64,000 nt of DNA from the NCBI GenBank assembly GCA_964017195.1, contig OZ024894.1, positions 31,212,388 to 31,276,387 on the forward strand, in the 5' to 3' direction. The notes beneath the pieces are model-generated. The model saw only the letters and a program-made list of their open reading frames with translations. It was not told the DNA's origin and did no database searches. Source of the stretch: Siderastrea radians (Eukaryota > Cnidaria > Anthozoa > Scleractinia > Rhizangiidae). Each line of letters opens with the position of its first letter. Within the stretch, counting starts at the first letter, position 1. Of this stretch, positions 1,231 to 48,830 are shown in pieces. The position numbers were made by a program, and so were the translations under genes.

Positions 1231-3180
1231 CATCAAAAACTATAGTCATTTCCCAAGAATCCTAAGGGCACAGACAATATCGGCAGTACAGGTGAATCTG
1301 TACCTGCTTATTTGAAGTGGGAGGCTATCTTGAGTATATTACCACCTTAGTTCCTTGTACAGCTGCTGCTTTAAAATTAATTGCAGCCCTGTATGTTTAT
1401 TTAGCTGGAATGCCCTACATTTCGCATTTGTGTGTATGATACTCATGAATGTCTTTAATCTTTAATCATGGTAATTGCCACTAGCGTTACAAATAATGCT
1501 AATCCGGCAATGGAGCGGCCAGCCGTCGCTCAATTACATGGTATCAGAATAAATGAAAAAACAACGATGTAAATTAAATTATTATGTTAAATATTGTTCA
1601 AACAAATGTGGAATTTTAAAATAAACATTTTAATAATACCATTTATTGTTTTGATTGATGACTTTGTTTACGGCCCGAGGCTTTCCCTCTTTTTGGTTAA
1701 CAGCATTCAGTCCCTTTAAGATATTTTTCGGCAGCAGACAACATGACGGGAGTAGTAGGCAGTAAGAATCAAGATCTCCAATAACCCCCCATCTTGAGCT
1801 TCAAGCCCCCCTCTCTATTGAGCCCCCTCCCCCCCATGGCCACACCCCCCCCCCCCCATGGCCACAAAATGACAGAAGGTACGGTGTGACATAGGTCGGG
1901 TTAGAATTGCACTATATTCTTGATCTAAACGTTTCCAACTTGCAATTTCATATGGGACAGTTTCAGTACTTTTCTATCAAGTTCTGTTTTCAGTATATCA
2001 ATGATGGTTTTGCTCATCTAGTCTCTCAAAAAGAGCTTATATGCGAAGAGACTTGTGTTCATTCAAATTCCAGGATTAGTTCCTGATTTTGGATGCAAAA
2101 CTCCTGGCTAATCATGTTATCACTTTTTTGTGGGCTACATTTCATTTCTGGTTTCAGTTTTAAGATTGTGCATGGCAAGTGCATGAGACTGTATCGCTAT
2201 CTATTAAAGCGGGCCAGCACTCCGCAGAAAAAAAAAGATTGTGTCATCTTTCATTTATGGAGAGTTTTAAATAAGCCCCCCCACTCTATTAAGTCCCCCT
2301 CCTAGTATGCCTGAAAATAAAGAAGCCCCCAGGGGGCGTAACAGAGCATTTACGGTAATCACTGTGGTAAAAGACATTAAAAAATGGTTTATCATCAGGG
2401 TCCAACAAAGGTTTGGTAACATGCAAACAACTTAACAACAAGATGGCACACTAAGAAATTTCAGAGGATAAGGGGAAAGAGTGCTATGAAGGGATGTTAT
2501 ATGTGAAAGTTAGGATGTGCTCTTTTCCGGTAGGTGGATGTGGAAAAGTATTGAAATCTTTGTGGCCTCAGAGGGACCCAACTGCTTACAGTGTGTACAT
2601 TGCAATGATATTGTATAGCAATGATGGTCTTAGGGGTGTGTACATGATACTGGTGCAACTGTCATTCTGGTATAAGTTCACCAAACTCTCTCTTGTAGCT
2701 CTTATTTGTTTACACAGTACCAGCAAAAAATCTCAGACTAGAATAAGTCATACCAGTGCACGTTCACTAAACCAGATCGAGATTTTCACTCTTGCATCAT
2801 GTAAACACAGTATCATTCTTATTGTTTCAATAATTTGATTGCAGCACAAAACTCAAACCACCAGAAAACACACTTTATGTTAACACAGTACAAGTTTTCA
2901 GCACGTATCAGAATGAAAGTTGCAGTGATACCTTGTAAACACCCCCTTTGAATCAATTCCTAATTTCACACCATTGTAAGGGACGATATGTATTATAGGG
3001 ATTCTTGGTCAATAGCATCTGCCAACACTCAGTGGAGCAGAGATTACTTCATCTGATAATAGCTCAAAAAAGGTCAGCTTATCAACTGATTGTCCCTTAA
3101 CTATACATGATCACATGCAAGTACAATGTTCAAATCCTTGGCTTTGGTATTTCCTACTTCAACACCATGACAACAACTCG
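1231..3180. other. Interior of hAT-like element without recognisable genes
   Basis: No convincing coding region is seen. There are C-homopolymer-rich stretches at about 1787-1853, and again at about 2273-2335 with a similar text (AGCCCCC...CTCTATT...AGTCCCCCTC). These look like two copies of a degenerate dispersed repeat. Short open frames here have no domain-like composition. Confidence 0.5.
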
Positions 3181-3200
3181 TTCAGCTCGATTGGCCAAAT

Positions 3201-3539
3201 GTGGAAATGCCGGGAAATTTAAAAACAAGTATATCCAACGACAAATGTGCCAAGGGAAATAACAAAGAAAATGAGAAAAACAGCAAAGTATCATGCAAAG
3301 GTGGAAAGCTATATAAGGCACAGGAGAAGTTAGCGAGAGGAGCTGGTGTGAACGTAGGAAAATATCTTTGCATTTCCCACCGTGACGAAGTAATGAGGGC
3401 AAATAATCACTGCTCTTTTCCTTCACGTAATTCAACTCAACATTCAAGGGCATTGGTGCCAACACCAAGGCATCTCTACAAGCAAATAGATAAGATAGGT
3501 GCGGGAGTTCAGGATTATCAGCCAGGCTGCAAATGGTGA
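3201..3539 (+). pseudogene. Cys/His-containing ORF fragment inside the hAT-like element
   Basis: This 112-codon open frame has protein-like composition and paired Cys/His residues: CKGGKLYKAQEKLARG, then GKYLCISHRDEV, then NHCSFPS, then a C-terminal DYQPGCKW. These could be zinc ligands. Immediately upstream, the same strand reads another KCGNAGKF-type segment in a different frame, separated by stops, so the gene looks broken. The position inside the hAT-like element suggests it is element-encoded cargo or an accessory protein, but the family is not recognised. The long minus-strand frame over the same bases (3154-3729) is probably its shadow. Confidence 0.3.
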
Positions 3540-4297
3540 CCAAATGTAAGAAAATGGAAAGAAAGTTAGATTGATACTTTGATTCAAATGAAAACTGCAC
3601 TGTGGCAAAGACAAGACTGGTAAGTGTAACCATGGAAGGCTTTTTAATAATTTTTAAATTTTTCAGACATTTAGGATTTGCTTGTGTACCCTCCCCTATG
3701 CCCAATTCGTTTACGTTGAATAAGAACAAACGGTTTACCTATGGCTGATAGATACAAATAAAGAGATACATAACTATTGAGAATTATCTACAATTTTATT
3801 ACTTTTGTCTCAACACATTAAAATGACTAACAACATTTTGAAATGTTATGAATACAACACAACTTGTTGTCATCATCATTAACATTACAAGTACAAATTG
3901 TACTGTTAATACACCTGAAATCCAAATTTCTTTCCCACGACAGGTGCAGAATTCAAGACACAATGAAAGTGGATGCTCTGGGAAAAAGGAAGTGCAACAT
4001 ACATTATTTCTCGTTCCTAAAGCGCGTTAAGAGGTTGACCGTAGGCGAAACGACCGAAAAGCACCGCTATACAGCTTGAAATAAAACCACAATTTCTACT
4101 GAATGAAAGCTTTACTTACCGTAATGATATTGCCAAAGGCATCGAATTCTTCGTTTAACATCTACCAGTACTAAATCGGCATTAAAAACAAAAAAATCCC
4201 ACAGCTTGGAACACAAAATCAGCGAGAAACTGACTCATTCACCACGAGGAGAGCAGTGACGTAACGAACATGCGCAGTGCGTTATTCAGCTCTGTCC

Positions 4298-4977
4298 GAC
4301 AACCCAACAAGACGAAGCAGCAGACGTTTCAAGATTTTCTGTAGTTTCAAACAAAGATATCGCAGAGCTTAAGTCTGTTGCAGTAAACAAAAATACCTCG
4401 GCCAGCTTGAGAAAACAGTGGAGGAATGTTTTTAATTCGTGGTGCTCCTCCCGCCATCTTGACGTTAACCGATGAAATCCGGTCAGCCGTGCCATTTCCT
4501 CTGTGAAATCACTTGCCATTCACGGGAATCTTCTTTGGATGACTACTACGAAATAAACGAAATTCAGAGAAAGGTACTTTCTCACACAATCAGTGGATTC
4601 AGCAAAGCTTAAAGCCACAATAGTGCAAGCAAATCCTCTAAAGTCACCCAAAACAGTGCCAGTGGGGACGCCTCAAATCAAGCGATTGTCGTCAAACAAC
4701 GATCTCCTCTGTCCAGTCTATTCCCCATATCCAACAACAGAGCCTGATGTATCAGACAATGGCTTTCAATCCTGTTTTTCAGCCTGCTGGTTTTCCAGGA
4801 TTCCAAACTGGTTTTGCTTCCCAGTATATGGCAGTCAGCTCCGGTTCCAGCACAAAATTACTCGGCAGGTTGTACGTTCAATTAATTTCAGTTGCTCCAA
4901 AGAAGTCCAGAAGTCTCCGAAACTACGGAACAAGCGAAGGGCTTGCATTATTCAGTCAGACGATGAGGACTAAACTC
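4298..4977 (+). pseudogene. 3' part of the recombinase-like gene: N-terminal helical module fused to C-terminal tail
   Basis: The first 8 bases (GACAACCC) are the second copy of the target duplication. 4306-4455 encodes the helical module that ends in the WCSSRHLD-like segment before a stop. From about 4510 one frame reads SLDDYYEINEIQRK-like sequence. That aligns by eye with the C-terminal exon at 55301 (SLQSYKSANEHHQRQ), both followed by a Ser-Gly. Another frame from 4593 runs to 4975 and ends in a basic then acidic tail (RNKRRACIIQSDDED), matching the 55.6 kb tail (KKRRYVIEGDDED). Frame changes between these pieces show decay. The central catalytic region is missing. Confidence 0.45.
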
Positions 4978-4979
4978 TA

Positions 4980-5694
4980 GTAGTGGACATTTTTTTAGAA
5001 AAATAAATGGCTCTCATCTGCTGTGGCTTGACAACTTTGAGTGACTGACTGATCAAAAACTGTGTTCGTTTACGCACGAGTGAGTTTGGTCACATGACAT
5101 TTATCATTTGCATAATTTATGTAACAGCGTTTCCGGTTCCGCTTGTTTAAAAACCAGGTTTCCTAAAGTGGAAAAATAAATATTAATATTTACAAAAAAC
5201 TGTGCGATTTGAAAGTGGGAGTAATAAAGTGGTAATTGAATTTCGTGTCGTGCAATTTGGTCTGAAATCATACTAAGTCTTGTGATTTCAAATCGAGCTC
5301 GCGCTGCGCGCTCGTTCGATTTTGAAATCACGCCTATGATTTCGGACCAAATTGCACTCCACTCAGTTCAGTTACCACTCAGTCAAAGGTGAGTGGTAAA
5401 GGCGAATTTTCGTGCAGAATTAAAATTAATTAACTAATTAAATTAATTTATACAGCCTGGAGGGTGAAGGGGGGGGGGACACTGCTTCCCTTCTCGTTGC
5501 TGTACGGAAGGTACTGGGATTAACTCCAGGACTCACATTTTTTTCCCATTTTTCCATGATCGTGACAAACTGAATAGAGTATAATAATTATTGACTATCC
5601 TTGACAGCCCTTCATCCTCCCACCCCAAATTACAGCTCCTCGGAACCTTCTACTGATCATTCATACTTGCTATGTTCTGTTTATTTAAAGTTAC
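4980..5694. other. Intergenic: hairpin repeat and low complexity
   Basis: It contains the foldback at 5247-5360 (annotated separately), a G-run near 5468-5480, and otherwise AT-rich sequence. No gene is seen. Confidence 0.5.
5247..5360. repeat. Foldback repeat, ~45-bp arms
   Basis: The left arm (GCAATTTGGTCTGAAATCAT) and the right arm (ATGATTTCGGACCAAATTGC) are inverted copies, with an inner TGATTTCAAATCGAGC / CGATTTTGAAATCAC pair. The centre is a GCGCTGCGCGC palindrome. It resembles a small hairpin MITE; a similar hairpin with a different sequence is at 55937-56066. Confidence 0.8.
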
Positions 5695-5771
5695 CTGTGA
5701 TTTGTTTTGCTTTGTGCTTGGCACTCGGTTGCCGGCCTTTGTCTGTGTGGCTGATATCTCCTTCGTCCGAG
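5695..5771 (-). CDS. Probable Ser/Thr/Gln-rich linker exon of the D8C receptor gene
   Basis: On the minus strand a clean acceptor (CTCTTCCTTTCAG) precedes 77 coding bases and a donor (CACAG/GTAACT). Read in phase 1, the exon encodes ARTKEISATQTKAGNRVPST and a few more polar residues, a stalk-like linker. The RVPST segment matches QVPST in the linker exon of the upstream paralogue (19092-19151), which supports common descent. It follows the D8C exon at 6244-6618. With a phase-1 start it ends in phase 0, unlike most linker exons here, so the true donor or frame is uncertain. No transmembrane exon was found between here and the window's left edge. Confidence 0.45.
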
Positions 5772-5889
5772 CTGAAAGGAAGAGAATAACTAAAAATTAG
5801 GATCCCCTGATATAACTATAACAAAGCAAACGCCTCCTTTGACCAGCATTCTATGTCATTTCGAATGTCTCTGTGCCCAACTAACTAAG

Positions 5890-6185
5890 GAAACAACTGT
5901 ACAGTTACCTATTAACCCTCAGACGTACAAGGGGGAGGGGGGTGGATGTCCCGTCATTTAGGTCTTTCTTGGATTTGTTCTAAACACTATATCGTAAGCA
6001 CCTGCCGTTTTCAGTAGCCATGTTAGACACTTTTTTCCCGGCCAGGAGAAAGGTGCAAGTTTAATGTAACGTCACAACAGATCCACTGCTTGACGAAGTT
6101 TAACTCTTCTGCGAAATAAGGTTGTCAAGCCATTTTTGAAGGAAAAAAGGCATGTTTTGACAATTTTTAGGTGAAAAAGAAACGT
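5890..6185. repeat. Dispersed repeat (AACCCTCAGACGTACAAGGG type)
   Basis: It begins TTAACCCTCAGACGTACAAG and contains GGGGGAGG, GGATGTCC and TTTTCAGTAGCC blocks. The same ordered blocks recur at about 27570-27800, indicating an interspersed element whose ends I cannot define. Confidence 0.5.
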
Positions 6186-6243
6186 AAATGTTGATCATGA
6201 ATATAAAGAGAATTTAATATTTATTATTTTTCTATTATTTTAC

Positions 6244-6618
6244 CTGGACCAGATGACATTCCGTTTCCGCAATAACGTGATTTACAAAAAGGTGTCGGCC
6301 GTACATGGTAAACGTAAAACTCTCCGCAGTTGAGGACAGTGATGTTTGTTGAATTATGGCAGCACCCTGAATAATAACTAAAGCACACTTTACGTTGAAC
6401 AACTCCATCAGCTAATGAAGAATGTCCTCCACTTAGCCAACCTGGGGCTGGGGTTCCACAATAATACATGTTGACACATGTTTCAAGCATTTGATCTCCA
6501 GTGTATCCAATGAATCTGTACCAACCAGGCAAAAGAGTGTTATCGCATGAGAAAGGAAGGTCACCATAATGCGCTTGTGCTCGGCTGAAGTCGTCGATGG
6601 ATGTGTAGTTGGAACATT
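6244..6618 (-). CDS. D8C (uromodulin-type cysteine-rich) domain exon
   Basis: This minus-strand exon runs from acceptor ...GTTCACAG at 6619 to donor CCAG/GTAAAA at 6243. It is 375 bases, symmetrical phase 1-1, and open throughout. It encodes CSNYTSIDDFSRA, then DNTLLPGWYRFIG, MLETCVNMYYCGT, APGWLSGGH, KVCFSYYSGCC, ITVLNCGEFYVYHV, and ends FCKSRYCGN. Known: this Cys/Trp pattern is the D8C domain of uromodulin, GP2 and OIT3-like proteins, an extracellular disulphide-bonded domain much expanded in corals; it does not by itself indicate a ligand. N-glycosylation motifs (NYT, NST, NIT) are visible. All expected cysteines are present, unlike the decayed paralogue at 20277-20608. A signal-peptide exon for this copy was not found between here and the next gene's tail. 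Confidence 0.75.
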
Positions 6619-8686: not shown

Positions 8687-9472
8687 CTGTAAATAGTTGT
8701 ACAGTGAAACAGAAATGTCTTCATGTTATAAGAGAGGTATATAAATGACAACCAAAAACTGGTAATCGAGAAATAATAATTCAATATTCATTTGTTTATT
8801 TTATTTATTTATTTATTCATTAATATTAAATATAAGTGATATAGAGGAAATAAGTTATTGGAAGTAATTTGCAAATAGGCCTCTCTTCTTAATGCTTAAG
8901 AACTTAGAAATATCTTTTTTTATCATATAAACGCAAAAAACTAACAAATAACAAGTACCAAGGCGTATTTTGCACAGAGTTATGTGGTTGTAAGAAATGA
9001 AGTAGGAGTTGCTTAGCTAACTTCAAAGGGCACTGTCCATCAGTTTAGACTGTCAAAAGAAGTACGTGTTTGATAGAAGCCCAAAATAATGCTCCAGGGT
9101 CGCCACAACTATAACTGGGAGTAGGGAAGTAGTGCGCATTTCAAACATAGGCCAAATTAATTGTTCATTTACCTGCAGAAGACAAAATGTTTTTGCAATG
9201 GCATCTGCAAATAGTTTATATGCCATAGAATTCAAAACGCCAGCAAGTTAACTGAATAGGCACCTGTAAAACATAAAATCTGTCTACAATGTAGAGCCAC
9301 CCCTTGCAAATCTTGTAGCATTTTCATCTGCTGTATCTAGTTGACCAGAAAATAAAAATATAACATAAAGAAGAAGAAATATTAGAAACGTTATTAGCTA
9401 AATTTGTAAGTCGGTAGATTCAACGTGCCTTTTTTTTCTAAGACAGCGCACAAACTGTGTCTGAGGATTAGT

Positions 9473-10006
9473 TTAACCCTATTTAGCCTAGAGGGGAGGA
9501 GGGGGGCACATTGTGCTCGCACTGACTTTAACGAATTATAACTTTTAAACTGCTGGACGAATAATCACCAAATATCGTAACTTTTCCTGAAATTTATCAG
9601 AAAAAATTTCCTGGGTCATGACGTGTCTATGATGATTGACGTTTCCATAGCAGCCGTCTACTCAGGAGGTGTTTTGACTATTTTTTGTCTTTTTTCAGTC
9701 CTTTTTTCAGTTTTTCCCCTTCTTTTGAAAAAAGAGGCTAATCGTTTACTTTTTTGTACTTGTTTTGATTAACTATGTTTCTTACAACAAATTCATATAT
9801 TTTTCGGTGACGTCATTGTCAACTGTATGACTGCATGCTCGGGATTCAAGATGGTGGCTCAAAATTCAAAATGGCTGCTTTGTGACGTCATTGTGACGTC
9901 ATGAAACGTCATAATGGACATGTCATAAGCCCAATATGTTAAGCTAATGGCGTACTATAAAGGTGCCAAGTTTCATCACAAGAGCGTGAATACTTTTCGA
10001 GATCTA
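9473..10006 (-). mobile_element. MITE of the TTAA-CCCTATTT family, truncated
   Basis: It begins TTAACCCTATTTAGCCT and runs through a G-rich block, GCTGGACGAATAATCACC, TGACGTGTCTATGATG, paired TGACGTCAT sites and CAAGATGGTGG, to AATACTTTTCGAGATCT. This is the reverse-complement order of the complete copies at 34192-34739 and 37014-37838. The far terminal repeat is missing. It lies in the intron between the tail and transmembrane exons. Confidence 0.75.
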
Positions 10007-10384
10007 TAAAACGTCGAACCTCGAATAAACGCCGGTCTACAAGGTAACATTTGAAATATACGCCGCGGGCGTTTATTTGAGGTACGGCGTTTATTTGGAA
10101 GCTGAACATTTATATAACTGATTCTCACTAATCAGTTATAACAATTTAAAAAGGTTCATGAACAACTGCAGTATATTACTTTTAACTTATTTTGTTACTT
10201 CCAGCTAAAGAAAGTTAGCGCAATGTAGTAAAATCGAGAAAATAGGGTAAAGTATTTTATTAAGGTATTCGTTCGGCGTAGTGTCCGTTACAAGGTTTCT
10301 GTGTACGCGTGGGATCCTTGTTGAAAATCCATGTTGAAAGGGACTGTATGAAAAAAAAATATCCCATTCGTACTTGTAAGTACA

Positions 10385-10530
10385 TAGTCCACCACAAAAA
10401 AGTCGGGAAATAACGGTAGCAATCAAGCACCCAACAAGCCCTACCATCATCCAACCCAGGAAAGAGAAATGACCCTCATGCTGGCTTTTCTTATCACCCG
10501 TATTCCACGGTGTACTTGTAGAGACAGCTG
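10385..10530 (-). CDS. Transmembrane exon of the decayed D8C receptor
   Basis: The acceptor TTTTTACTTCAG precedes a phase-1 exon encoding a polar stretch (AAVSTSTPWNTGDKKSQ). A hydrophobic segment of about 25 residues follows (FSFLGWMMVGLVGCLIATVI), then RLFCGG and a basic/aromatic start of the cytosolic side. This fits a single-pass membrane anchor in a type I receptor. The 3' boundary is uncertain: the frame stays open to 10205, but no strong donor stands out after the hydrophobic segment. Confidence 0.5.
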
Positions 10531-10773
10531 CTGAAGTAAAAAGCGGAAATGGGAATGCTTTAAAATGACCTGACTCAACACTTCTCGATCTGCAACTCAG
10601 TAGTATGGGGCAGCTAATTGATCTGACTTCTTTCTGGGAGTTAGATGTTCTCCTGGCACTTTACCTATCTCTTTAGCCGACAGCCCTTGTTCTCAGTTCC
10701 TCGTTCTAGAAGGGGAAGTTCTAAGATACTTAATCTAACTTGGTACCTTGGAAATGGTCGAAGAAAAACATAC

Positions 10774-10938
10774 CTCTAGTTGAGCTGCCATAATTAGCTT
10801 TTCCTGATTCTGTACTGACAAATTGTGTCGCTGGTTTCTTTGTTCGAAGCACTTTGCTGCCGTCCTCTGGTTGTGTAGTGAATGTCTCCTGTGTTGACTG
10901 CATCTTGAAATTAAACGCCCAAGTTGTTGCTGGCTTTG
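10774..10938 (-). CDS. 3' half of the linker exon, interrupted by the element
   Basis: Downstream (minus) of the inserted element the frame reads TTKPATTWAFNFKMQSTQET, then PEDGSKVLRTKK and VSTESGKANYGSSTR, to a strong donor (CTAGAG/GTATGT at 10774/10773) in phase 1. It is Thr/Ser/Gln-rich like the linker exons of the lectin gene. Its upstream partner is 19092-19151. Whether the two halves share one frame after removal of the element is not clear; the direct join at TA appears shifted, consistent with prior decay. Confidence 0.45.
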
Positions 10939-10940
10939 TA

Positions 10941-11091
10941 GTCAGGTGGCTTAACGCACAATAAAGGCTTGATTGTGACAAGAGCGATAAAAGCATGAAA
11001 TTTGGCACACAATTTGCTTACACCCTACCAAATAATATTAGAAGGGGTGCCCAAGTCAATCTGCTCACGATTCCGTTTTAAGGGGATATTT
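10941..11091. repeat. Left terminal inverted repeat of the 8.1-kb element
   Basis: It runs from GTCAGGTGGC to AAGGGGATATTT. It contains AAAAGCATGAAATTTGGCAC, ACCCTACCAAATAATATTAG and GGGGTGCCCAAGTCAATCTG, all found inverted at 18949-19089. Compared with the right copy it has about 10 extra bases (around CACAATAAAGG). Confidence 0.9.
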
Positions 11092-13500
11092 AGTATGCAG
11101 AATTCAAAACCGACAAAATGACTGGCGCCCAGACTTCGCTCGTCCATCCAACATGGCGGCGCCCTTGCTTTCCTGCTGTCCCTGTAAGTATCTGAACAAA
11201 ATGTTTAAGCTTCTTTGGAAATATGTTGGAGTTATGTGCAGAACATAAAAATAACATATATTTTTTTATCCATTTGAATGGTTTTAAGCCTGTTTTGAGT
11301 GAGATCGTTCGTACAGAAATGCTCCTGTTCTAGTTCGACTAGCTGCTCATCGTAAAATGGAGAGTACTGTAGACCTACTACACGCAAATACTATTCTCTT
11401 TTGTATTTTTTGCAATTGGACAAGTTTCAATCATTTTTAGCGGAGCTCGCGGAGCACCATGGGTAAGAAAATTTGGTAACCCGTTGATCCGAAAAATTTT
11501 GGTTCTGACGTCAGCGTACGTCCGTCCGTCCGTACAGACTCTGGGTGAGGGTGACGGGAGTCCCAAGACAGCCTGACCGGGGAGGTGGAATGACACTTTT
11601 TCTTGTAGCTGAAGTAAACAACATGGCGGCTGGTTCGTCGTACGGTCGTCTTTCAATACGATAATTGTAATACATTCTTGGAATGAAGACTTGTAGCAGT
11701 TCATCACGAAAAGGAAGAGGATTGCTATAACCTCGATGGCGCATATAGAAGATACTGGAGAGCTTGAAGGCAAGAAATCCTTGTTCGCGGACATACTTGT
11801 TTTTTTCAAAGCTAAGGAGATCTGGAAAGAACCCAGCGACTTTTGTTTAGATTTTCAAGGCCCTCTTTCAGTTCAGTGGTAAAGTAGATTACAGATTTGA
11901 GTGTGGATTTACATTGTAAAAATTGTTTAATCGAGCGACTTTACATGTTTAGTAAATTACGGTAATTTTCTTGAAATGTTTTAAAAACTTGTTTAAAAAT
12001 AGCTCGTAGTTCCCGTTTGCCGGCTTGCGAGTAACTTTACTCGAGGGGAAAATTGAATGCAGTTTGCTTTCCTAGGCAAACGAATGCGTCGTATGTGAAT
12101 GTCATTTCATGTTTTTGAAGGTTTCTTGTCCTTTTTCTGTGTTTATGCATTAATTTAAAGGAATTTTCATTAGTGAGCAATCTGATATTTAGGCTTCAGT
12201 TAACTTAAGCTTAATTAAGCTCAATTTCCTTTTGAACTTTAGTGCGTAGTTTTCAATATTTTTCTTAGAGGAATTCTACTGTATTTAATTCGAAAAGTGG
12301 AAATCGTGACTAGTTCTAGACTGAGTCTGTGTTGTTTTTCAATGTAGGTTGTTTTTCTTTGGCGACGCGTATTGGGTTGTTTTGACTAATTCGTATTTAT
12401 CGTATTTATTTAGTATTCAACACCTGAAGAGTCGCTCTGTCGTCATTTTTAAGTTTATAGTCTTAGTGTAAAGCTCCTTATGTTTTTTGTTCAGTTGTGG
12501 AATATTTTATCTTCCTTATATTGTTATATTTTTTAGCTTCTCCATATGAAGTGAATGACATTTCTGTCCCAATTTAGCGACTAAACTTAGACTCGCCGTT
12601 TCAGTGAGTGAGTTCAGTGTGGCATGTTTTCGTGATCGTTTTGTTTTTTGTTAAACCGCTAAGCCATTTCAGTGTGTGTTTAGTTACAGATCGAAATGAA
12701 ATCTTTATTTAAGTAACTATAAGCAAAGCATTTCTCGGTTTAAGTCTACGTGTATTTTGTCTAAAATGAGACTCTAAAACCTTCCTAAAATTTAATAGTT
12801 CAGGGTGTATTCTTGAAAGCGCCCGATTAATACTTCGCGGTTGAAAAACTTGTGCCATTTTCTCTTGATAATTATACGTGTGCTTGAAAGTTTCCGAAAA
12901 CATTTTTTGGAGAATTTTTGCCAGTAAACGGTTTGATGCCGGGAAAATATTATTTATTTTAGCAAGATAGATTTCGAGAAATGTTTCATGGTTAACAGAA
13001 CTAAGCAGCCAGAGGGATGCATTGGAATCAGTGAGAAATGTGTATTTGCATGGAAAAGTCTTTAAGTGGGTTTTAATTAGCAATTGTAGTTTTATAGGTA
13101 CTCTTCTTGAACTCTATAAGCTAGCTTTCGAAAGAATGCTACAAGAAGAGCTGTCGTTGAAAGTCGTACTGAAGTCTTCTCTTTGATGAAAAATAAGCCA
13201 GCTCACAGTTTCCTCAGCGGTCCGCATGTTTTCCTTTGCTGTTTTTCACCTCTTGGGGAATAACTGCACAACTAAAATTTACTGTATTTTACGGGCCAAT
13301 TAGCATGAAAGAGAGACGTGGAGCTCTGCTTTTAGGCTCGGCTAAATCTATATATTATAGTCTTAGGGCCTATCTTCTATATCTGTAGGTTCAACAAATA
13401 CTGTTAATTGTTTGAATTGTAGGGAGAAAAATGGCAATGTTTTTAAAGTGTTAAGAGCTCGTCACAGTGTAGCTAACTTGAAAGTCCATTTTTCTTCTAG
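11092..13500. other. Leader region of the 8.1-kb element, mostly a nested repeat
   Basis: Next to the left TIR is CAACATGGCGGCGCCC (ATG at 11153) followed by a donor-like CCCT/GTAAGTATC at 11184, a possible first exon. Joining it to the acceptor at 13500 would create a stop, so it may be untranslated leader. The rest is the nested repeat and AT-rich sequence ending in the polypyrimidine acceptor TTTTTCTTCTAG. Confidence 0.35.
11440..13362 (+). repeat. Interspersed repeat family R1, copy nested in the 8.1-kb element
   Basis: The left end TAGCGGAGCTCGCGGAGCACCATGGGTAAG... continues through AATTTGGTAACC and a CGTCCGTCCGTCC run. The right end reads GCTTTTAGGCTCGGCTAAATC and TATATATTA. The same two ends bound the copy at 24290-26396 and, inverted, the copy at 47963-48830. 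An internal TTAAGTAACTATAAGCAAAG block matches the 25.7-kb copy. No coding region is recognised. Confidence 0.75.
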
Positions 13501-15639
13501 GAGCTTTATCGGCAATGTCGGTTGATTGGAAAAGGTCTATAATTTGCCAGGAATCTACAAAAGTATCATTAAAGTGTCCATTAAACAGCCATGGACCATC
13601 TGAGGTCAACAAGGAAGCGTATGTGGCTTTCTTGCAAAATGTTAGCAGCTTTCGTGCAACAAACGCGTTACCCGTGGAGCTTAAATTTGCCGGCTATGTT
13701 CATGTAGATTGCCTTGTTCTTAATATGGCTTCCTGGCACAAGTCCTGTCACCTGAAGTTTAGTCTTTCAAAGCTAAAGAAAGCTCAAGAGCGTGCCGGCC
13801 GAAAACGAAGCGAAGACAGCAGAGCAGATAAGGAGGGAAGAACACCACCGAAAAGCAGAAAACGCCAGCCTGTTGAGCGATCGCTGTGTTTATTCTGTTC
13901 AGGAGGAGACGACAGCGATAAGCTTCACTGTTTCTCGATGCTTGAAACTGATAGGAACACCCGTCAAATGGCCCTTGCACTTGAAGATTTTGAATTGTTA
14001 GGTAGTATGTCAGATGGAGACTTAATTGCTATTGAAGCAAAATACCATTTGAAGTGTCTGATCTCGTTAAGAAATCGTTATAGATCATTCTGTGCACAAA
14101 AAACACAAGATTGAAACGATAGAGCGGAGGATGAAAAAATGGACGAGTCAGTAGCATTTGTCGAGCTGGTTGAGTACATTGAAGGATGTGTAGAAAACGG
14201 AACTCATCTGTTCAAACTTTTTGAGCTGTCGTCGTTGTACAACCAGAGGCTCGAAGATCTTGGAATTAAAAAGATCGTAAATAAAACCAGGTTAAAGAAT
14301 GCATTGTTGGAGCATTATAATGGCACTCTACAAGAACAAACTGATGGGAGAAACACTGTCTTTAAGTTTTCAGGGAGACAATAAGTAGCCTATTGAAGGA
14401 TGTCTTGAAACAACACGACTTTTCAGAAGATGCTGAAATTCTAGCGAAGGCTGCAACGATTGTAAGGAAAGACATTTTTGCTCACAAAGGATTTAATTTG
14501 TCCGGATGTTTTCCAATGGACTGCCAATCAAAATATTTACCATCTAGCTTAAAGTCTCTGGTTTCTATGATTCTAAATGGACTTAACATTAAGGATCAAG
14601 AGCATTCTGAAAGCCAAGCATGTTTAACAGTGTGTGAGACAATCATTTTGAATTCCAAGAAAAGATCCTGCAAGACCAAAGGTGGTCAGTCTCGCCAATC
14701 AGGATCTCGTGATACCTCTGTATGTTGGATTGAGCTTACATAGCTCAACAAGAAGCAAAACGGTTATTGAAAAGATGTATCAAATGAGCATTTCTACCTC
14801 CTACGATCGCATCATGGAAATAGAAGACTGGCTAGCGAGGTCTCTTTGTGAGCGCTACAGGGAAGGTGGATGCGTTGCACCTGCTTGTTTAAGAAAAGAT
14901 CTATTTTCTGTGGGTGCGCTTGATAATGTAGGTCATAACCCGAGCTCTACGACCTCACTCTCCTCGTTTCACGGAACTGGTATCAGCATCTTTCAGTTTC
15001 CAACGGAACGTGTACCCGGTGAAAGTAGGTCCCCAATAAAAGTTCCGCCGACAGCAACAGAACACGAAGGATTACCAGAAAGCTATGTAACGGTCCCTAC
15101 AGTCGCACTTAACACAAGTTCAGTTTCTGTTCCAGCCTGCAACATGACACCATGTCACGGCGACGACAATATTGACGACGCTATACAGCAAGAAGGTCAC
15201 TAGGTGAACCACGCTTTATCCAAACTCGGCAACGATGACGTAAGCGCTAAAGATTCCATCACATGGGCTGCTTATCACTCTAGAAATCAGCAACAAACGA
15301 ACGATCCGCCTGCTATAACAGCACTTCTTCCTTTGTTTTACGAAAAGGCAGATACATCTGCGATGATAAAACATGGTATGGATGTGCTAAGAGAAGCGAC
15401 ATCATTTCTCAATCCAGGTCAAGTACCAGTCATTACCCTGGACCAGCCTCTGTTTGCGAATATGGAGAAGATAGGTTCGTAGTAATGTTCGGTGCACTCC
15501 ATTTGGAAATGGCGATGTGGAGCACGGTTGGCGATCTCCTTGACGGTAGTGGCTGGACCACCATTTTAACAGAAGCGGAGGTGGCCTCTTCTGGCATTGC
15601 GCAAGGCTTACTAAAGGCATCTCATCTCACCAGAACAAG
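13501..15639 (+). pseudogene. Exon 1 of the TIR-element gene: zinc-binding N-terminus and helical region, frameshifted
   Basis: The acceptor TTCTTCTAG ends at 13500 and the first ATG is at 13515. The sequence begins MSVDWKRSIICQESTKVSLKC. It contains two CxxC/H/C-type units (ICQES... with WHKSCHLKF; LCLFCSGG... with YHLKCLISLRNR) that look like paired zinc modules. It continues as a helical region (EDAEILAKAATIVRKDIFAH, SLKSLVSMILNG), then ALDNVGHNPSSTTSLSSFHG and PVITLDQPLFA. Breaks: an in-frame TGA at 14112, a frame change near 14370, another near 14700, TAG at 15201 and stops near 15479. It ends at donor AACAAG/GTATTA. The GTAGCATTTGTCGAGCTGG stretch after the TGA at 14112 is in the same frame, so that is a single nonsense change. 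Confidence 0.6.
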
Positions 15640-15766
15640 GTATTATTATTTTAGCGACATTATCTTCATCATCATTATTTTTACTATAATTATTATTATT
15701 CGAGAATACACATTGACAGTGTTGCTAGGTTATTTATGCAAGATTTTATCTGTTATTTCACTTCAG

Positions 15767-16157
15767 ACATGCTCACCAAGTTACCTTACTGGCCATTCAC
15801 AGCATGAAGCAAGAAGCCTACATGGCTTCCGCTAGTGATGAAGCTTCACTTCCCGGTCCGAGCGCACCGCGCACGCAATTTCTCGATGTTTGTGGAGGTC
15901 CTAGAGCAACTGGTGCCATTATTCTCAGCCCTTGATCACACCAACTATGCCCGCTGGGTTCCCATTCATATCAGAGATATGAAATCTCTTCCTGAGTCCG
16001 TCAGATGTGAATTTCAGGAGCGTCATCACTGGGTTCTTTCGAAGACGGGAAACAAATTCTCTTCAATGCCGCTGGACCAAGCCCATGAACAGGAGAATAA
16101 GATGGTCAAAGGTTCTGGTGGTGCAGTTGGTCTAACTGAGAATCCTGTAGCCTTCAG
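15767..16157 (+). pseudogene. Exon 2 of the TIR-element gene: DQAHEQ/GGAVGLTENP block
   Basis: The acceptor TTATTTCACTTCAG leads in frame from exon 1 (codon split AG/A) into HAHQVTLLAIHSMKQEAY. A frame change near 15860 is followed by FVEVLEQLVPLFSALDHTNY, ARWVPIHIRDMKSLPESV, then LDQAHEQENKMVKGSGGAVG and LTENP. It ends at donor CTTCAG/GTAACG. This block is the most conserved part of the family as I remember it. The Asp, His and Glu residues of DQAHEQ are candidates for catalytic or metal-binding positions, but this is inference. Confidence 0.6.
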
Positions 16158-16498
16158 GTAACGGTACAGACAAACAATATAAAATTGTGCAACGTAATGC
16201 GTGTCTCTAAATAAACGCTGCGTCAAGAAGTGTGTACATGATGTTTTGTTTTTCGTCAGTATACACTAGATCTCGAAAAGGTATTCACATTTCGGGTTAT
16301 TTGGAACCGGGCAATAACAACAATTATCGAATAATAGAAAACTAGCCCTTATACAATTGCATGTCATTGCAAACAGATATATCATCATTACTGCTTGTAG
16401 CTATTAATACCTCCATCAATACGGAGTCATTCGCCCATTCCGTCACTTGTGATATGTAATCGAACATGCAAACATGAAAAACTACTGATTTTTTATAG

Positions 16499-17490
16499 AC
16501 GACGGATGCTGTCAGGTCCAGAGCTTTCAAGGATCATACACCAGTTCGAAGACCAGTTCCTCTCGGGTCGGGACCCGGACAACCCGAAGAACTTTCAGAA
16601 TCACGAGGCAGGCCGCGCAGCTTAGAAAACCATCCATCGGCAAGTGAAAAACCTTTGTGACGTGGTGAGACGAACCGGAAATCCCTTTCTTGACGACTTC
16701 CCTGAACTAGTCACTCTTGATAGCAGGGACTGTGCAGATATCAGTGTAGTTGAAGCAGTCGAGAAGCTTGACAAACTTGGTGAGGAGCAATACCAGAAAT
16801 ATCTAAATGGTGTAATCAAGGACCGCTCAAGTTCCATTCACAATCTGATAAAGAAGAATAATCTGCCTCTCTTAGGAAAGAACCACAAAAAGGCAACTTC
16901 AAAGCAAGGTAAAAAGATCGCAGTTCTCCAAAGCAATTTAAACCTGTTTGCCCAATTGTACGTAGCATTACAAAACCGTGAAGGAGATATGAGAGAGTTC
17001 TTCAGCCATGAAGTCCAGTCCTTTCCACCCGCACTGTCAGAGTTTGGAAACCTACGCCTTCCAAGTGCCAAGTCTGATCTCTTAAAATGTTTGCAGCCCA
17101 ATAGCGATGGACATACTAATTCACCTACTCAGTTTGACTGCAAAGTCTTGGATGGCGCAGTGATTGTCCACTGTCTCCCAACTGTCGAAGCTTCGACGTT
17201 TGATGAATACGCAGAGAAGGTATTCATTCCTCACCTCCAGCAGCAGCTCATTCAAAGCAAACGTGTCGATGTTGTGTGGGATTCCTACGTTCCTGACAGC
17301 CTAAAGGAAGCAACAAGGGAGAAACGAGGCCAAGGGATCAGAAGGAAAGTAGCTGGCCAAACGAAGCTTCCAAAGAAATGGATGATGTTTCTACGAGACC
17401 CTGACAACAAGTCTGAGCTGTTTTCCTTTCTGACGTTGAAGGTAGCGAAATTTCAATGGCCCCTCGACAGAACATTGTACATTACATCCG
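16499..17490 (+). pseudogene. Exon 3 of the TIR-element gene: long conserved middle domain
   Basis: The acceptor TTTTTTATAG at 16498 joins in phase to exon 2 and reads RRRMLSGPELSRIIHQFEDQ. One in-frame TAG (16623-16625) follows. A 284-codon open stretch then carries GNPFLDDFPELVTLD, SSIHNLIKKNNLPLL, MREFFSHEVQSFPPALSEFG and FDCKVLDGAVIVHCLP. It ends with a recurrent family motif VDVVWDSYVPDSLKEATREK, then RGQGIRRKV and KKWMMFLRDPDNKSELFSFL. It ends at donor ATCCG/GTAAGT. The open length and conservation show this exon decayed least. No match to a named catalytic domain is recognised in this part. Confidence 0.65.
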
Positions 17491-17583
17491 GTAAGTAACA
17501 GCACTAAAATGTATTTATTTATATTTGATAGTTATTACGGTGCTGTTAAATCTATAATACTCTGTTATTTATTTACGTCCCAG

Positions 17584-18173
17584 GAATATCTGTCATTTCC
17601 CATGGATCTGATTATGTTATCCGTCAGTGCAACCATGAAGAGGCCGACACCCGCATCGTCGTCCACGTACGCCACGCTCTGGAGAGGGGTGCAGAATCTG
17701 TCCTTGTCAGGACAGTTGACACCGACGTTGTCGTGATCTTTAAGTTGGAAAGTTCCATGATCTTTTAGCTTACAACCAACGTGCCAAATTGTGGGTGGCG
17801 TTCGGCATGGGGCGCCACTTTTCGCTAATGAACGTCAACGAAATCTGTTCTAACCCTTGGAGAGTCTAAGTCCCGAGCCATACCAGTTTTCCACGCATTC
17901 ACTGGGTGTGACTGTACATCGCAGTTCTGTGGCATCGGGAAAAAGACAGCGTGGAGAGCACGGGAATTAAATGGTCAAGTAACACCTGCCCTGGAGCACA
18001 TCGCGACTCATCCCTTCCAGCAGCTGACTGTCTCCTCAGAGATTTTCCAGAAGCTAGAGAGATTTACGGTCATAATGTATGACAAATCAAGTCTCCTCGA
18101 TTCAGTGAACGACACGCGACTGATGCTGTTTTCAAAGCGAAATAGAGACCTGGACAACATTCCTCCGACACAG
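17584..18173 (+). pseudogene. Exon 4 of the TIR-element gene: PIN/FEN1-like nuclease signature
   Basis: The acceptor ACGTCCCAG at 17583 joins in phase and reads HEEADTRIVVHVRHALERGA, then VRTVDTDVVVI. A frame change follows near 17740. In other frames come LWVAFGMGRHFSL and VFHAFTGCDCTSQFCGIGKK-TAW. Known: in FEN1/XPG-family PIN nucleases acidic residues (ExE, DxD) bind metal, and the second acidic cluster precedes a GCD-(x)n-GIGxKxA helix-hairpin-helix turn. The order here is the same: HEEADTR, DTDVVV, GCD, GIGKKTAW. This supports a flap-endonuclease-like fold. At least two frameshifts make this copy inactive. It ends at donor ACACAG/GTAAAA. Confidence 0.65.
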
Positions 18174-18324
18174 GTAAAACAAAGCGTTAGCGGAAGGTTA
18201 TCGATAAAAAGAAAGTACGGAGTTTTGTTTTAATTTGATTAGTTTGCAACTTGATAAGTAGGAAGAAAACACCTAAAAGAAGAAAAAGAACTTGAGCTTA
18301 CTCTCTAAACAATTTAAATTCCAG

Positions 18325-18627
18325 AATGCACTCCTGCAGCATGCTCAGAGAACAGTGTATCAGGCAGGAATTTGGACGACATCGGAGCGCTCATTGCAGG
18401 ACGTTCCTTCCCCTGCAGAGTTTTCATGGGCAAAAGGAGAGGACAACCAGTGGCAGCCAGTTTGGATGACTATCCCAAAAGTCTCAAATGTTTGCAGAGA
18501 GCTTATCAAATGTACCTGCAAAGGACGCTGCTCACGCTGCAAATGTGCAAAAGAAAAGTTGCAGTGCACGCCATTGTGGAAATGTGAATGTCCAGAGAGC
18601 AATTCTAAGAGTGATGGGCATTTCTGA
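18325..18627 (+). CDS. Exon 5 of the TIR-element gene: C-terminal CxC cysteine cluster
   Basis: The acceptor TTAAATTCCAG at 18324 opens NALLQHAQRTVYQAGIWTTS, SPAEFSWAKGEDNQWQPVWM, then a cysteine array CRELIKCTCKGRCSRCKCAK, LQCTPLWKCECPE, to the stop TGA at 18625. The spacing of CxC pairs resembles the CXC/tesmin-type zinc-binding modules; here it would be the DNA- or RNA-binding end of the element protein (inference). The frame is intact. The right TIR lies about 320 bases downstream. Confidence 0.6.
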   Translation, partial: NALLQHAQRTVYQAGIWTTSERSLQDVPSPAEFSWAKGEDNQWQPVWMTIPKVSNVCRELIKCTCKGRCSRCKCAKEKLQCTPLWKCECPESNSKSDGHF

Positions 18628-18948
18628 GGGTTTTAGCATTCAACGTGAGAATTCCCGATTCTACCAGATTTAATGTACGAAAAGACGCGATCAATTTGCA
18701 CGCATTAGTTCCGCTTTTCTGTTGCAGTTTTTTGTCCTGTGTTATCAGCCGAGCGAAGACTAGGTACTAGTAACTGTAATGTGGTTTTGTTGACACTATT
18801 TTAAATGCAATCTTTTCCAAAATAACAAAGTTTATAGAGAAGTGAGAAAAACAAGACAAAATTGCAAAAATTCATTTCAAATAGAGGCAAAATATCGGTT
18901 TTGAAAATAGAGCCACAGGTTACCCAACCCTGATATCGGTCAAAACCG

Positions 18949-19089
18949 AAATATCCCATTAAAATGGAATCGTGAACAGATTGACTTGGGCACCCCTTCT
19001 AATATTATTTGGTAGGGTGTAAGCAAATTGTGTGCCAGATTTCATGCTTTTATCACTCTTGTCACGATCAGGTCGTTAAGCCACCTAAC
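18949..19089. repeat. Right terminal inverted repeat of the 8.1-kb element
   Basis: It is inverted relative to 10941-11091. It reads AAATATCCCATTAAAATGG, GATTGACTTGGGCACCCC and AATATTATTTGGTAGGGTGT, and ends CGTTAAGCCACCTAAC. TA follows at 19090. Confidence 0.9.
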
Positions 19090-19091
19090 TA

Positions 19092-19151
19092 TTGTGCTTG
19101 GCACTTGGCTGCTGACTAGAGTTTGCGAAGTTGATGGCTCATTTGTTGAAG
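19092..19151 (-). CDS. 5' half of the linker exon, upstream of the insertion
   Basis: On the minus strand the acceptor TCTTGTCTTTTTAG precedes a phase-1 reading ASTNEPSTSQTLVSSQVPST, cut off by the element at the TA at 19090. The same VPST core occurs in the linker exon at 5695-5771. The other half of this exon is at 10774-10938, 8.1 kb away. Confidence 0.5.
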
Positions 19152-20276
19152 CTAAAAAGACAAGAATATCTCAACCATTCAAGAAATAATACAATCAGTG
19201 GCAGTAGAAAAAAAGAAAAAAACACAACTTTCACTCAATGTCAGACGATAACTAAATACTATCTTATGAGTGATTATTACTAAGCCAATCTCTGCATGTG
19301 TACTGCTGACAAAAATGCTGATTAAGGCCTTGGAGTAAAGCGACGGAGCCCTAGAGCCTCTAATTTTCCGTCTTAGAGCCCTGGAGCCGTAAGCCCCTTT
19401 GGGGTCCTGTCGAAATTAGCTGGCTAATTAAGCACGCGTGACCGGACCTGGACCAGGTTGAACGGTCAAGAATCCGTGGGAATCCTTGAAGCGATACCTT
19501 TACATACACGTATAAAGAAATTGGCTCAAATTCGTTGACGATGGGAATTCGTGTAGTTAAGCATTTTTAACCAAGCGAGGTCAAAAACGATTCAGTGTAA
19601 AACAAAGATTTACAACCCACAAGGAATTAAAGTTCAAATTGTCTGATCAGTTTTCACCGGGAGATTTGAATCTTCTTTGGGAATTAAGTAGGGATCAATT
19701 TGCATCCAGGGTAAGGTCGGGGTTATAGTTGGCATGACGAAACTTAAGACGCTGAAGTTAGGGGTGGGCGAACGTTTTGTTTGCAAGGCATACTATAGCT
19801 ATGTTGATAAGATATCATGACCGGAAAGTACTTCTTTAACAACCACACTAGTATAGTTTTCATGATGCCCTCGGTCTTGACTCGGACGGTGAATAACATA
19901 TTTATGTTTGCTTCTAGGGGATAACCTAAGCATTATTCTTAAGCGTCAGGGATGCAAACTGCAGAATTTTTTAGCCTAAGAACAGTTGTCACTTATTGAC
20001 GTTGATTTTAAAGAATCGAATACATGCAAGGTCAACATTGCCTTTCTCGCGTGGCAAGGCAACCGCTTATTAAAACATCTTTAGTTTTCGTTCACACCAT
20101 CTCAACTCGACTTCAACTTATTTGCTAATTTTGAGCGTAGCCGAATGATCGCTACACGCATATGGTTCCACATGCATGTAACGATCCCGGTCTTTGTTAA
20201 TTGGCGTATACGAAAAGGAAAACAGATATGAGTACGAAATAGTTGTTTTTAATTGGCGCAGATGATAATTACATAC
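19152..20276. other. Intron-like region of the decayed receptor
   Basis: No gene is seen. It contains a run of imperfect CGGAGCCCTAGAGCC / GGAGCCGTAAGCC words at about 19345-19410, reminiscent of a dispersed repeat, and otherwise AT-rich sequence. Confidence 0.4.
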
Positions 20277-20608
20277 GCTTCCGCAAAAGCGTGATTTCCG
20301 GCAGTACGGAATGGTGTCGGCCCAACTGAGTTCGATTGTTTACAAACATTGAACCCTCCGCAGTTACGAACAGTGATGTTCGTTACCTCATAACCGTGCC
20401 CCCAAATAATAACTAAAGCACGCTTTGCGTTGAACATGATGCATGGCCATGGGTTCCTGACAATAAAACATAGTCGACAAATGTTTCAGGCATTTTATCT
20501 CCAGTTCTTACAATGCCTATAAGAGTGTTGTCGCGTGGGAAAGGAAGGTCGCCATAATATGTTTTTATTCTACTGAAGTCGTTAATGATAGTGTTTAGTT
20601 GAAACATT
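20277..20608 (-). pseudogene. Degenerate D8C-domain exon
   Basis: It aligns by eye with the intact exon at 6244-6618: acceptor ...CTACACAG, then AATGTTTCAAC, then the shared YGDLPFPRDNTL, ETFVDYVLLSGT, NITVRNCGGFNV and VGPTPF segments. Differences: an in-frame stop and a 2-base insertion near the start, loss of the PGW segment and of several cysteines, and deletion of the central APGW...KVCF part. The donor is weak (GC/GTATGT). It is therefore a dead domain exon, next to a signal-peptide exon that is still intact. Confidence 0.65.
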
Positions 20609-24289: not shown

Positions 24290-26396
24290 CGGAGCCTGCG
24301 GGCAAAGCCCGCCAGCGGAGCTCCATTGCTAAGGAAATTTGGTAACCTAGCAACCGAGAAATTTTGGTTGTGACGTAATAGTCACGTGACCGTCCGTCCG
24401 TACGTCCGTACGTCCGTACATCCGTACGTCCGTCCGTCCGCACAGACTCTGTGGGAGAGGGAGGGGAGTCCCAAGACAACCCGACGGGGGTAGAGAATGC
24501 CATCTTTTCTTGGCGGGAAATCGCGCGGTGCTTTTGGGCAACCTGCGTTTTTCTTGGCGGGAAATCGCATGACCATCGTTGCTTTTGAAAAAGAGGTTTC
24601 TTTAAAAGCTTAAGCTTCTTTAGCATTTAACGATTGCTCAAGAGTACTGAAGTTTTTTACTTGACAAAAAAAAACATCTAATACCTATAAATGGAAAGAA
24701 AAAGGAAAGAAAAAGTTCAAAAGAATACTGGTAGAAGGCGAAAAGTTCAAGTTACGAAAGCTGCCTTCAAAGGACTTCATCGCTTTGTTTTGTTCACGGC
24801 GGAGAGCTTGCCTTATCCTGAAATACAACCGAGTAAGTGAAGTTTTTAAAGGGTCTAAGGTACATGATTTCGAGTATTACGGTGAAAGAGATTACGTTTT
24901 GAAATGGAAATTTGATTTATGCCATTAGAAATCTCTCATTTACTTTTGACTTTAAAAAATTATTAGAAAACGCGCTTAGATTTGTGACAGATTCTTGAAC
25001 ACTTTGCCATGCTCAGCCGATTTCACTCGCGTGGACCGATCTACGATTTTGGAAGTGAAACGCGAATTGCATTTGAGTATAAACTTACGGGTTTTCGAAT
25101 GAACTTTTTTCAAAAATGATTTCTCTGTCCATTATTTTGCGTTTGTTTATTCATAACAGTAGGTCTAAGCACAGCTGCAAGACTACTGCACAAGCTTTGC
25201 TTTCAATTTTGACTGTCCGGTCCATCTCTTTGTGCAACTGTCGATTTTCTTGCCCTAGAAGTTTTCGATAGTAATAATCTTTTAAGTGAAGCAGTTGTCG
25301 GCTTAAAGCTATTTTATCCCAAAAGCTTCCGAAAACAGTTTTGTGCGTTCCTCAAGCGCCTAACTTTAGATAGGCTTACTTCACATCCGCCAAACTTATG
25401 CCGGCATAATTTAGTTAAAGCGTGTTTGGTGTTTCTTTGTTTTGAATCTTGATGGTCTCTAGTTAGAGAACGAAATATAACAGTTATTTGAAAAACTGTA
25501 AGCGAAGCAGTTGTCGGTTTAAACCTATTATATCCGAAAAGCTTCCAAAAACAGTTCTTTGCATTTTTAAAAGCGCTCGAATTTCAGACAATTTGCAGCC
25601 GCAAAACTTATGCCACAGAGTTAAGAACGTTTGGATGGTGTTTGTTTGTTTGTTTTCAATCTCGATGGTCTCAAGTTAGAGAACGAAATATAATGGTCAC
25701 TTAAGTAACTATAAGCGAAGCAGTTTTGAGCTTAAAGCTATTTTATCCGGTAAGTAATGTGTGTTCCTCAAAGTGCTTGAATTTTTTCGCGGCTGCTAAA
25801 ACCTACGCGACATTTCTTCGATAAGTTTATTACAAGTGCTTCGAAGCTCCCCAGATCCTTTCTTTGGGGTAATCCCAGTAAAATGCAGGTGAAATGTCAG
25901 TATAAATTTTTGACCAGACTAATATTTTTATTTAGTGGCAGTTCATGTTATTTGTTAACATCCGAATGCGATGAAGACAACCCATTTAAACGGTCGAATA
26001 ATTTTTGTTTTGTTTTTGTAAATGAGCGCCGTTTCAAGTTCATTCAAGCGAACAGCCAATAATCCAAAGAGATTTGACAAGCCTTGACAGTTAATGACAG
26101 GATATGGAAACATTGCAAACACCAAGCAAGACGGCTGGTGAGTAAAATAATCAAGCTGTGCTCAGCCTCTAGAATGACCTTTCGAGCTTGGTTTTACAGA
26201 ACAGATCCCCAAAATATTGGAGGACAATTCGAAACACTTTCAGGCTTTTTGAGAAACACTTTTCGAAAGCGAACTAGCCAAAAAAAGCCCCAAAATATAT
26301 TTCAGACCGAAAAGTTTCAGGACTATTTTTGAGAAACGAACACCAGTTTATTCCTTCGCGGCTCCGCTTTTAGGCTTGGCTAAATCTATATATTAT
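24290..26396 (+). repeat. Interspersed repeat family R1, longest copy
   Basis: The left end TAGCGGAGCCTGCGGGC continues with AGCGGAGCTCCATTGCTAAG, GAAATTTGGTAACC and a CGTCCGTACGTCC array. The right end reads CGGCTCCGCTTTTAGGCTTG and GCTAAATCTATATATTATTG. Both match the copies at 11440-13362 and 47963-48830. GCGGAGCC at the start and GGCTCCGC near the end are inverted, suggesting short terminal repeats. The interior contains the tandem units at 25270-25790. Confidence 0.8.
25270..25790. repeat. About 2.4 tandem copies of a ~215-bp unit inside R1
   Basis: AAGCGAAGCAGTTGTCGGTTTAAA-type starts recur at about 25285, 25500 and 25715. Each is followed by TATTTTATCC, AAAAGCTTCCRAAAACAGTT and, in the first two, CGATGGTCTCWAGTTAGAGA. 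The third copy is truncated. Confidence 0.8.
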
Positions 26397-47962: not shown

Positions 47963-48830
47963 GCAGATTTAGCCAAGCCTAAAACCGGAGCGCCCCCCTT
48001 CTGTTTTTGCTTTGTTTTTTTTGTTTTTATTTATTTTTTTATTTATTTTTAATTTTTTTTTTTGCTGCCACTTATTAATTTGCGAAAATACTCTCATTTT
48101 AGTTGTTAAATAACAAAAAAAAAAAGATGTTATCCATATCGCCGCTGGGTATCGAACTCGGCTCATTGGCGTCGTAGGCCGGCTTATAGTCCACTAGGCC
48201 ACAAGCGCTAACGTCGCTTTCATATGTTAATTTTGCTACTTAAATCTTTTTTCGTAACAAAGTACGTATCAACATGAAAATGCTGGTGTTTTCCTGCAAA
48301 CTGTTCGGACCGCCGCAAAAACCATGGTTGTGGACAGAAAAAAAACAGAAGGCACTAGCTCCGCTATATTTGGCGTCGGAACCGCTGCGAAATCCTGCGA
48401 ACTCAAGCGGTGTGTTGACCGAGTTCGCAGCAGAACTGACAACAAAGATGCAGTCCAATTAAAGGCAAATTTGAACTTCGTTCCTCAACTTTTTCGCCTA
48501 AATTGAACTTTTCGCCTTCCACCAAAAAGACAACTAAGTATTCTTTTCAACTTTTAATAAAAGTAATAAAATTGTTTTTGACTTTTGTTGTCTTTGCTCG
48601 TTTTGCTACAACGCGGGTTACCATGCGATTTCGCTCCAAAAACGCGGGATACAGCACAGAGTTATCACCTCATATTGGTGACTCTGTGGTGCGGATGGAC
48701 GGACGGACGGACGTGCACGTGACTGTTACGTCACTACCAAGATTTCTTGGCTTGATAGGTTACCGAATTTGCTTAGCAATGGTGCTCCGCTGGCGAGCTA
48801 GCACGCGGCCTCTGCTAAAAGATTTGGTCC
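47963..48830 (-). repeat. Interspersed repeat family R1, inverted short copy
   Basis: Read on minus it starts AGCTCGCCAGCGGAGCACCATTGCTAAG, CAAATTCGGTAACC and the GTCCGTCCGTCC run (48690-48710). It ends GGTTTTAGGCTTGGCTAAATCT at 47963. The centre is largely deleted relative to the 24.3-kb copy, and the SINE at 48139-48206 lies inside it. Confidence 0.7.
48139..48206 (-). ncRNA. tRNA-derived SINE head (pol III A and B boxes)
   Basis: The minus strand carries TGGCCTAGTGG (A-box consensus, 48191-48201) and, about 35 bases later, GAGTTCGATACC (B-box consensus, 48148-48159). The following sequence runs into A-rich text. The cloverleaf pairing is poor, so it is a tRNA-derived retroposon or tRNA pseudogene rather than a working tRNA. 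Confidence 0.55.

Follow-up and report, generated by a model that had tools for sequence, protein, structure and literature searches.

The closest described system for the element reported here is the Academ superfamily of DNA transposons, with its AcademH and AcademX lineages; the defining papers are said to be Kapitonov and Jurka 2010 and Kojima 2020. The nuclease of AcademX is of the XPG type. The element occupies positions 10939-19091, on the forward strand, of a 64,000-nucleotide stretch of the Siderastrea radians genome (assembly GCA_964017195.1, contig OZ024894.1, positions 31,212,388 to 31,276,387), indicated below as the window. In all likelihood it represents a new but ordinary family within this known superfamily, assigned to its nuclease lineage, AcademX, with a probability of about 0.87: the placement follows from described features rather than from a sequence comparison with Academ consensus proteins, and is for this reason not proven. 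What remains interesting is the pairing of enzymes in its protein.

In excerpts of the published work, Academ is counted among the DDD/E superfamilies (PMC9587614); target site duplications of 3 or 4 bp are given for AcademX and of 9 or 10 bp for AcademH, a difference which seems related to the presence of a nuclease or of a helicase (PMC10045372); 100 curated Academ elements from bivalves average 5,565 bp (PMC10294476), and annotation assigns 0.17-0.23% of three reef coral genomes to Academ-1 (PMC12005156). Among the literature matches listed, no study devoted to Academ proteins was found. The features of AcademX found at this locus are 3-bp duplications, terminal inverted repeats, a predicted DDE domain and a predicted nuclease; size is similar too, and no difference emerged in the features compared, the comparison being by description only. 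A sequence-only reading of this DNA had called the family not assigned to a familiar superfamily. Since nuclease and 3-bp duplications match AcademX (PMC10045372), and since Academ is a listed DDD/E superfamily (PMC9587614) with Academ-1 annotated in corals (PMC12005156), as far as the excerpts go, this is probably wrong.

Ends, copies and target site duplications

The element is bounded by long terminal inverted repeats, located at 10939-11091 (forward strand, starting with TAGTCAGGTGGC) and 18949-19091 (reverse strand; the forward-strand end is GCCACCTAACTA). They are 153 and 143 bp long and 87.6% identical (E 5e-51; 153 columns, one 10-bp gap). The inverted repeats around the gene had already been recognized from the letters, but with ends 2 bp too far inside on each side, and TA had been taken as the flanking sequence. 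TA instead forms the extreme tips of the conserved ends (TAGTC...GACTA for the family, TAGTC...AACTA for the window copy); the duplication is TTG, at 10936-10938 and 19092-19094. A TA duplication, as in Tc1/mariner, was accordingly rejected, the TA being within the conserved ends and the true duplication, outside them, being 3 bp long.

The left end was used as query against the whole genome (805 Mb, 439 contigs). Of 19 matches, 11 are ends of seven window-family copies (the window copy and L009 to L014), all of which contain the gene or part of it; one recognised end each is present in L012, L013 and L014, and much of the interior is missing in L011. The other eight matches form a separate short family (L015-L022), with 75-78% identity across about 80 bp, most members starting with TAGTC. 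The gene was not found by tblastn in any of these eight loci, and the four copies with both ends located measure 2,779, 2,825, 3,261 and 4,721 bp: the short family is probably a non-autonomous relative. Its ends are TAGTCCGGTCCG.

The coding region identifies further families. When the genome was searched at the protein level with the exon 3 stretch as query, 135 of 813 candidates were scored and at least 137 matches emerged, so that locus counts here are minimum figures. The 30 best loci fall into four families, with mean identities of 96.8% (window family, 5 loci), 99.8% (15 loci), 99.4% (6 loci) and 98.1% (4 loci). In the 15-locus family, two copies are bounded end to end: they are 6,777 bp each, share 99.6-99.7% identity and have differing flanks. 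As judged from the mean identity of 99.8%, this related family probably moved recently. One of the two bounded copies has a stop in the coding stretch, relative to the related protein P0001, and is therefore not claimed to be intact. A distant relative, L083, features a single open frame of 1,466 aa (1871-6271, reverse strand) over the region that is divided into several exons in the window family; its ends are TAGTC/GACTA, and an 82-bp inverted repeat adjoins them.

The search for ends covered the window family, the 15-locus family, the short family and L083. With all groups pooled, a 3-bp duplication is present in 14 of the 17 insertions with both ends located, whereas three bases would agree by chance in roughly 1 case in 64; no 4-bp match was found in the 11 insertions where the script looked for one. 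The window family has the duplication in three cases out of three (TTG, CTA, TAT), the window copy and L009 being counted once. In the 15-locus family both copies read end to end have it (TTT, GTA), as do 5 of 7 of the loci with both ends, among 13 further loci approached by a short end motif; the other 6 of the 13 lacked at least one recognisable end inside the 201-bp pieces. Three of the four bounded copies, among the eight loci of the short family, are also positive. L083 shows a CTA duplication; the motif matched there at three places on the left and five on the right, from which the ends were selected by eye.

These copies bear on the possibility that a host gene, trapped between unrelated repeats or belonging to a domesticated family, is not the mover of the element. 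Two observations favour it and weigh against a transposon gene: the gene copy in the window is broken, and one near-identical copy, L009, derives from a segmental duplication, not from transposition. On the other side, the gene or part of it accompanies these ends in all seven copies, and other families with the same gene have the same type of ends, 3-bp duplications and unrelated flanks. The trapped-gene explanation is thus largely refuted for the window family, and overall very improbable. The earlier proposal of a transposon with terminal inverted repeats and the gene inside is supported by the seven copies and by the near-identical gene-bearing copies of a related family. The genome search anticipated at that time did return the same ends together with the gene, but with duplications of 3 bp rather than TA.

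The sister copy L009 is found on the same contig (30.43 Mb), at a distance of 0.8 Mb and within the same flanks as the window copy; alignments of the two, including about 1.5 kb of flank per side, show 96.7% and 96.4% identity. The common flanks indicate a single insertion, duplicated afterwards along with its surroundings, and L009 was accordingly rejected as an independent insertion. The segmental duplication containing the transposon spans at least 9455-20594 of the window, with its partner at 30.43 Mb. L009 is 6240 bp long, compared to 8153 bp in the window, and has nothing corresponding to 11440-13354. In the window copy, this segment must accordingly have been inserted later, as a nested insertion (1915 bp, 5' of the coding region, TTA duplication by eye). 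The size of 8.1 kb previously given holds for the window copy as it stands, but includes these 1,915 bp. Pieces related to the nested insertion are found at 24315-26392 and 48696-48790. An Rfam scan of the window gave 0 matches.

The encoded protein and its relatives

Relatives of the protein are about 1,400-1,540 aa long, in one chain, and their predicted structures contain a DDE (RNase H-like) domain, followed by a nuclease with an EXO1/FEN1 fold. One or two domains account for most of each listing of PDB folds. For the predicted DDE domain the closest fold is the P element transposase, at 8% identity, with hAT also among the nearest. What it shares with P element, hAT (Hermes) and RAG1/Transib transposases is the predicted RNase H core, with an all-helical insert ahead of the catalytic glutamate. 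For the nuclease, residues 714-1080 of the relative P0011 are predicted to take the EXO1/FEN1/XPG fold, and seven acidic residues, paired by eye with the FEN1 active site, are conserved in relatives and retained in the window. In P0011 the residues of this putative metal site would be D740, D783, E873, D875, D899, D901 and D962, and those of the putative DDE triad D115, D290 and E502. The EXO1/FEN1/XPG nucleases differ from the present one in sequence (11-14% identity to the human enzymes in structural alignments) and in that here the domain is fused to a transposase. The FEN1-like nuclease reported from the letters is in agreement with this prediction; as the gene's enzyme it is not alone, being preceded by a second predicted one, the DDE domain.

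The duplication length separates the element from other superfamilies. It is 8 bp for the P element, 8 bp for hAT and 5 bp for RAG1/Transib, compared to 3 bp here, and none of these transposases is known to carry a fused FEN1-type nuclease. Membership in the P element superfamily was thus ruled out, the resemblance being in fold only. KDZ (Kyakuja-Dileera-Zisupton) elements are defined by an 8-bp duplication with a CxC transposase; they were ruled out by the 3-bp duplications, a cysteine array alone being insufficient. AcademH belongs to the same superfamily, but has, according to an excerpt of PMC10045372, a helicase in place of the nuclease and duplications of 9 or 10 bp. It was ruled out as well, the duplications here being of 3 bp and no helicase family being found when the window frames and two sets of relatives, 7 and 5 (one scanned twice), were compared with Pfam.

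With the joined window protein as query, 353 proteins among 7,325 candidates match at E 0.001 or better. Of the best 120 of these 353, 72 extend over almost the whole length of P0001, and the seven named by organism are all from animals: hagfish, Nematostella (two), eel, pipefish, abalone and Actinostola. No protein match was found in plasmid records, searched with the exon 3 frame, or in phage records, searched with P0011; 67 pattern matches of A1 in viral contigs include no relative by tblastn. Neither P0001 nor A1 has a sequence match among solved structures. The end of the DDE domain is weakly recognized by the Pfam model DUF6589 (P0017 745-892, 27.1 bits against a cut-off of 27; window 15808-16161), which scores below cut-off in the other scanned proteins that matched. 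The position of this match suggests that DUF6589 is a transposase domain; no use of the name was found among the literature matches listed.

Part of these data would fit an unnamed superfamily, separate from Academ, with the same layout of DDE domain and nuclease. Three points speak for it and weigh against the placement in AcademX: the placement is by published description; no Pfam model beyond the weak DUF6589 matches names the protein, in the window frames or in the relatives scanned; and the gastropod (abalone) relative is ill-fitting with a report, in an excerpt of PMC10294476, that among molluscs Academ is found almost only in bivalves, unless the method used there missed it. Against it stand the duplication length and the nuclease, both matching the AcademX description (PMC10045372, in excerpt), and the Academ-1 annotation, in an excerpt of PMC12005156, of three coral genomes. 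A separate superfamily is accordingly considered unlikely, and AcademX is retained.

In the window copy, the gene seen earlier between the repeats is found again as five exons with GT-AG borders, placed by alignment to P0001 and by reading of the borders. All lie on the forward strand and have putative splice sites. Exon 1 (13515-15639) encodes the N-terminal Cys/His modules, the winged-helix region and the first two DDE acidic residues (ALDN, with LDN from 14919, and LDQPL from 15438). Exon 2 (15767-16157) encodes part of the DDE helical insert and its glutamate, in DQAHEQ from 16075. Exon 3 (16499-17490) contains the end of the transposase and the start of the FEN1/EXO1-fold nuclease, with VLDGA from 17145 and VVWDS from 17271, while exon 4 (17584-18173) contains the rest of the nuclease, with HEEADT from 17634, VDTDV from 17715 and TGCD from 17901, and a helix-hairpin-helix-like stretch. 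Exon 5 (18325-18627) encodes the C-terminal part, with the cysteine array from 18511. The motifs quoted in the sequence-only reading (DQAHEQ, VVWDS, HEEADT, VDTDV, TGCD and the cysteine array) are all read in the window. Stops or frame changes break exons 1, 2, 3 and 4, exon 3 by one in-frame stop; the frame of exon 5 is open. Catalytic motifs are still readable, and D118 of P0011, kept in 57 of 57 relatives, is a glycine in this copy. The copy in the window has thus decayed; it most likely derives from a cut-and-paste transposon that was formerly autonomous.

Putative division of labour between two enzymes

The order of the domains suggests how the protein may work. The N-terminal Cys/His modules and the winged helix would bind the element ends; the RNase H-like DDE domain would cut the element out and attach its 3' ends to target sites 3 bp apart, leaving 3-bp gaps, the repair of which would generate the 3-bp duplications. 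The FEN1/EXO1/XPG-fold nuclease may cut or trim the 5' strand, which is not transferred, or a 5' flap, either at the ends of the element or at the junction formed on integration; the C-terminal cysteine array, after the nuclease, completes the order. The role at the 5' strand, suggested by the enzyme class and by the remark on AcademX and AcademH duplication lengths in an excerpt of PMC10045372, is a possible one, at somewhat less than even odds.

An alternative, possible if doubtful, keeps the identity of the transposon and puts the nuclease outside cut-and-paste: the DDE domain would cut all ends, and the nuclease would raise copy number by making or widening repair templates, by restarting replication or by resolving junctions. 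P element and hAT, whose folds are the closest to the DDE part, transpose without such a nuclease, which weighs against a role at the 5' strand. So does the helicase that takes the place of the nuclease in AcademH, indicating that the second enzyme is replaceable; in the same excerpt (PMC10045372), however, duplication length goes with the kind of second enzyme, and this points to a role in the cutting. The acidic residues of the nuclease, moreover, show roughly the same conservation as the DDE triad, and this too speaks against a function outside cut-and-paste.

If the nuclease does act on the 5' strand, its relation to the DDE domain would be like that of TnsA to TnsB in Tn7. A eukaryotic two-enzyme transposase may tentatively be envisaged, in which a P/hAT/RAG-like DDE domain works on the 3' ends and a fused FEN1/EXO1-type nuclease on the 5' strand: a counterpart of TnsB plus TnsA, derived from a repair nuclease, where the second enzyme, nuclease or helicase, would set the duplication length.

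Many animal genes labelled "uncharacterized", most of them lacking a Pfam name, form one large family, which in the Siderastrea radians genome is shown to consist of transposon genes; some members probably moved recently. Such gene models, being transposon genes, can be masked or labelled. The presence, in one chain, of a predicted DDE transposase and a predicted flap-type nuclease raises a testable question on how the second strand may be handled.

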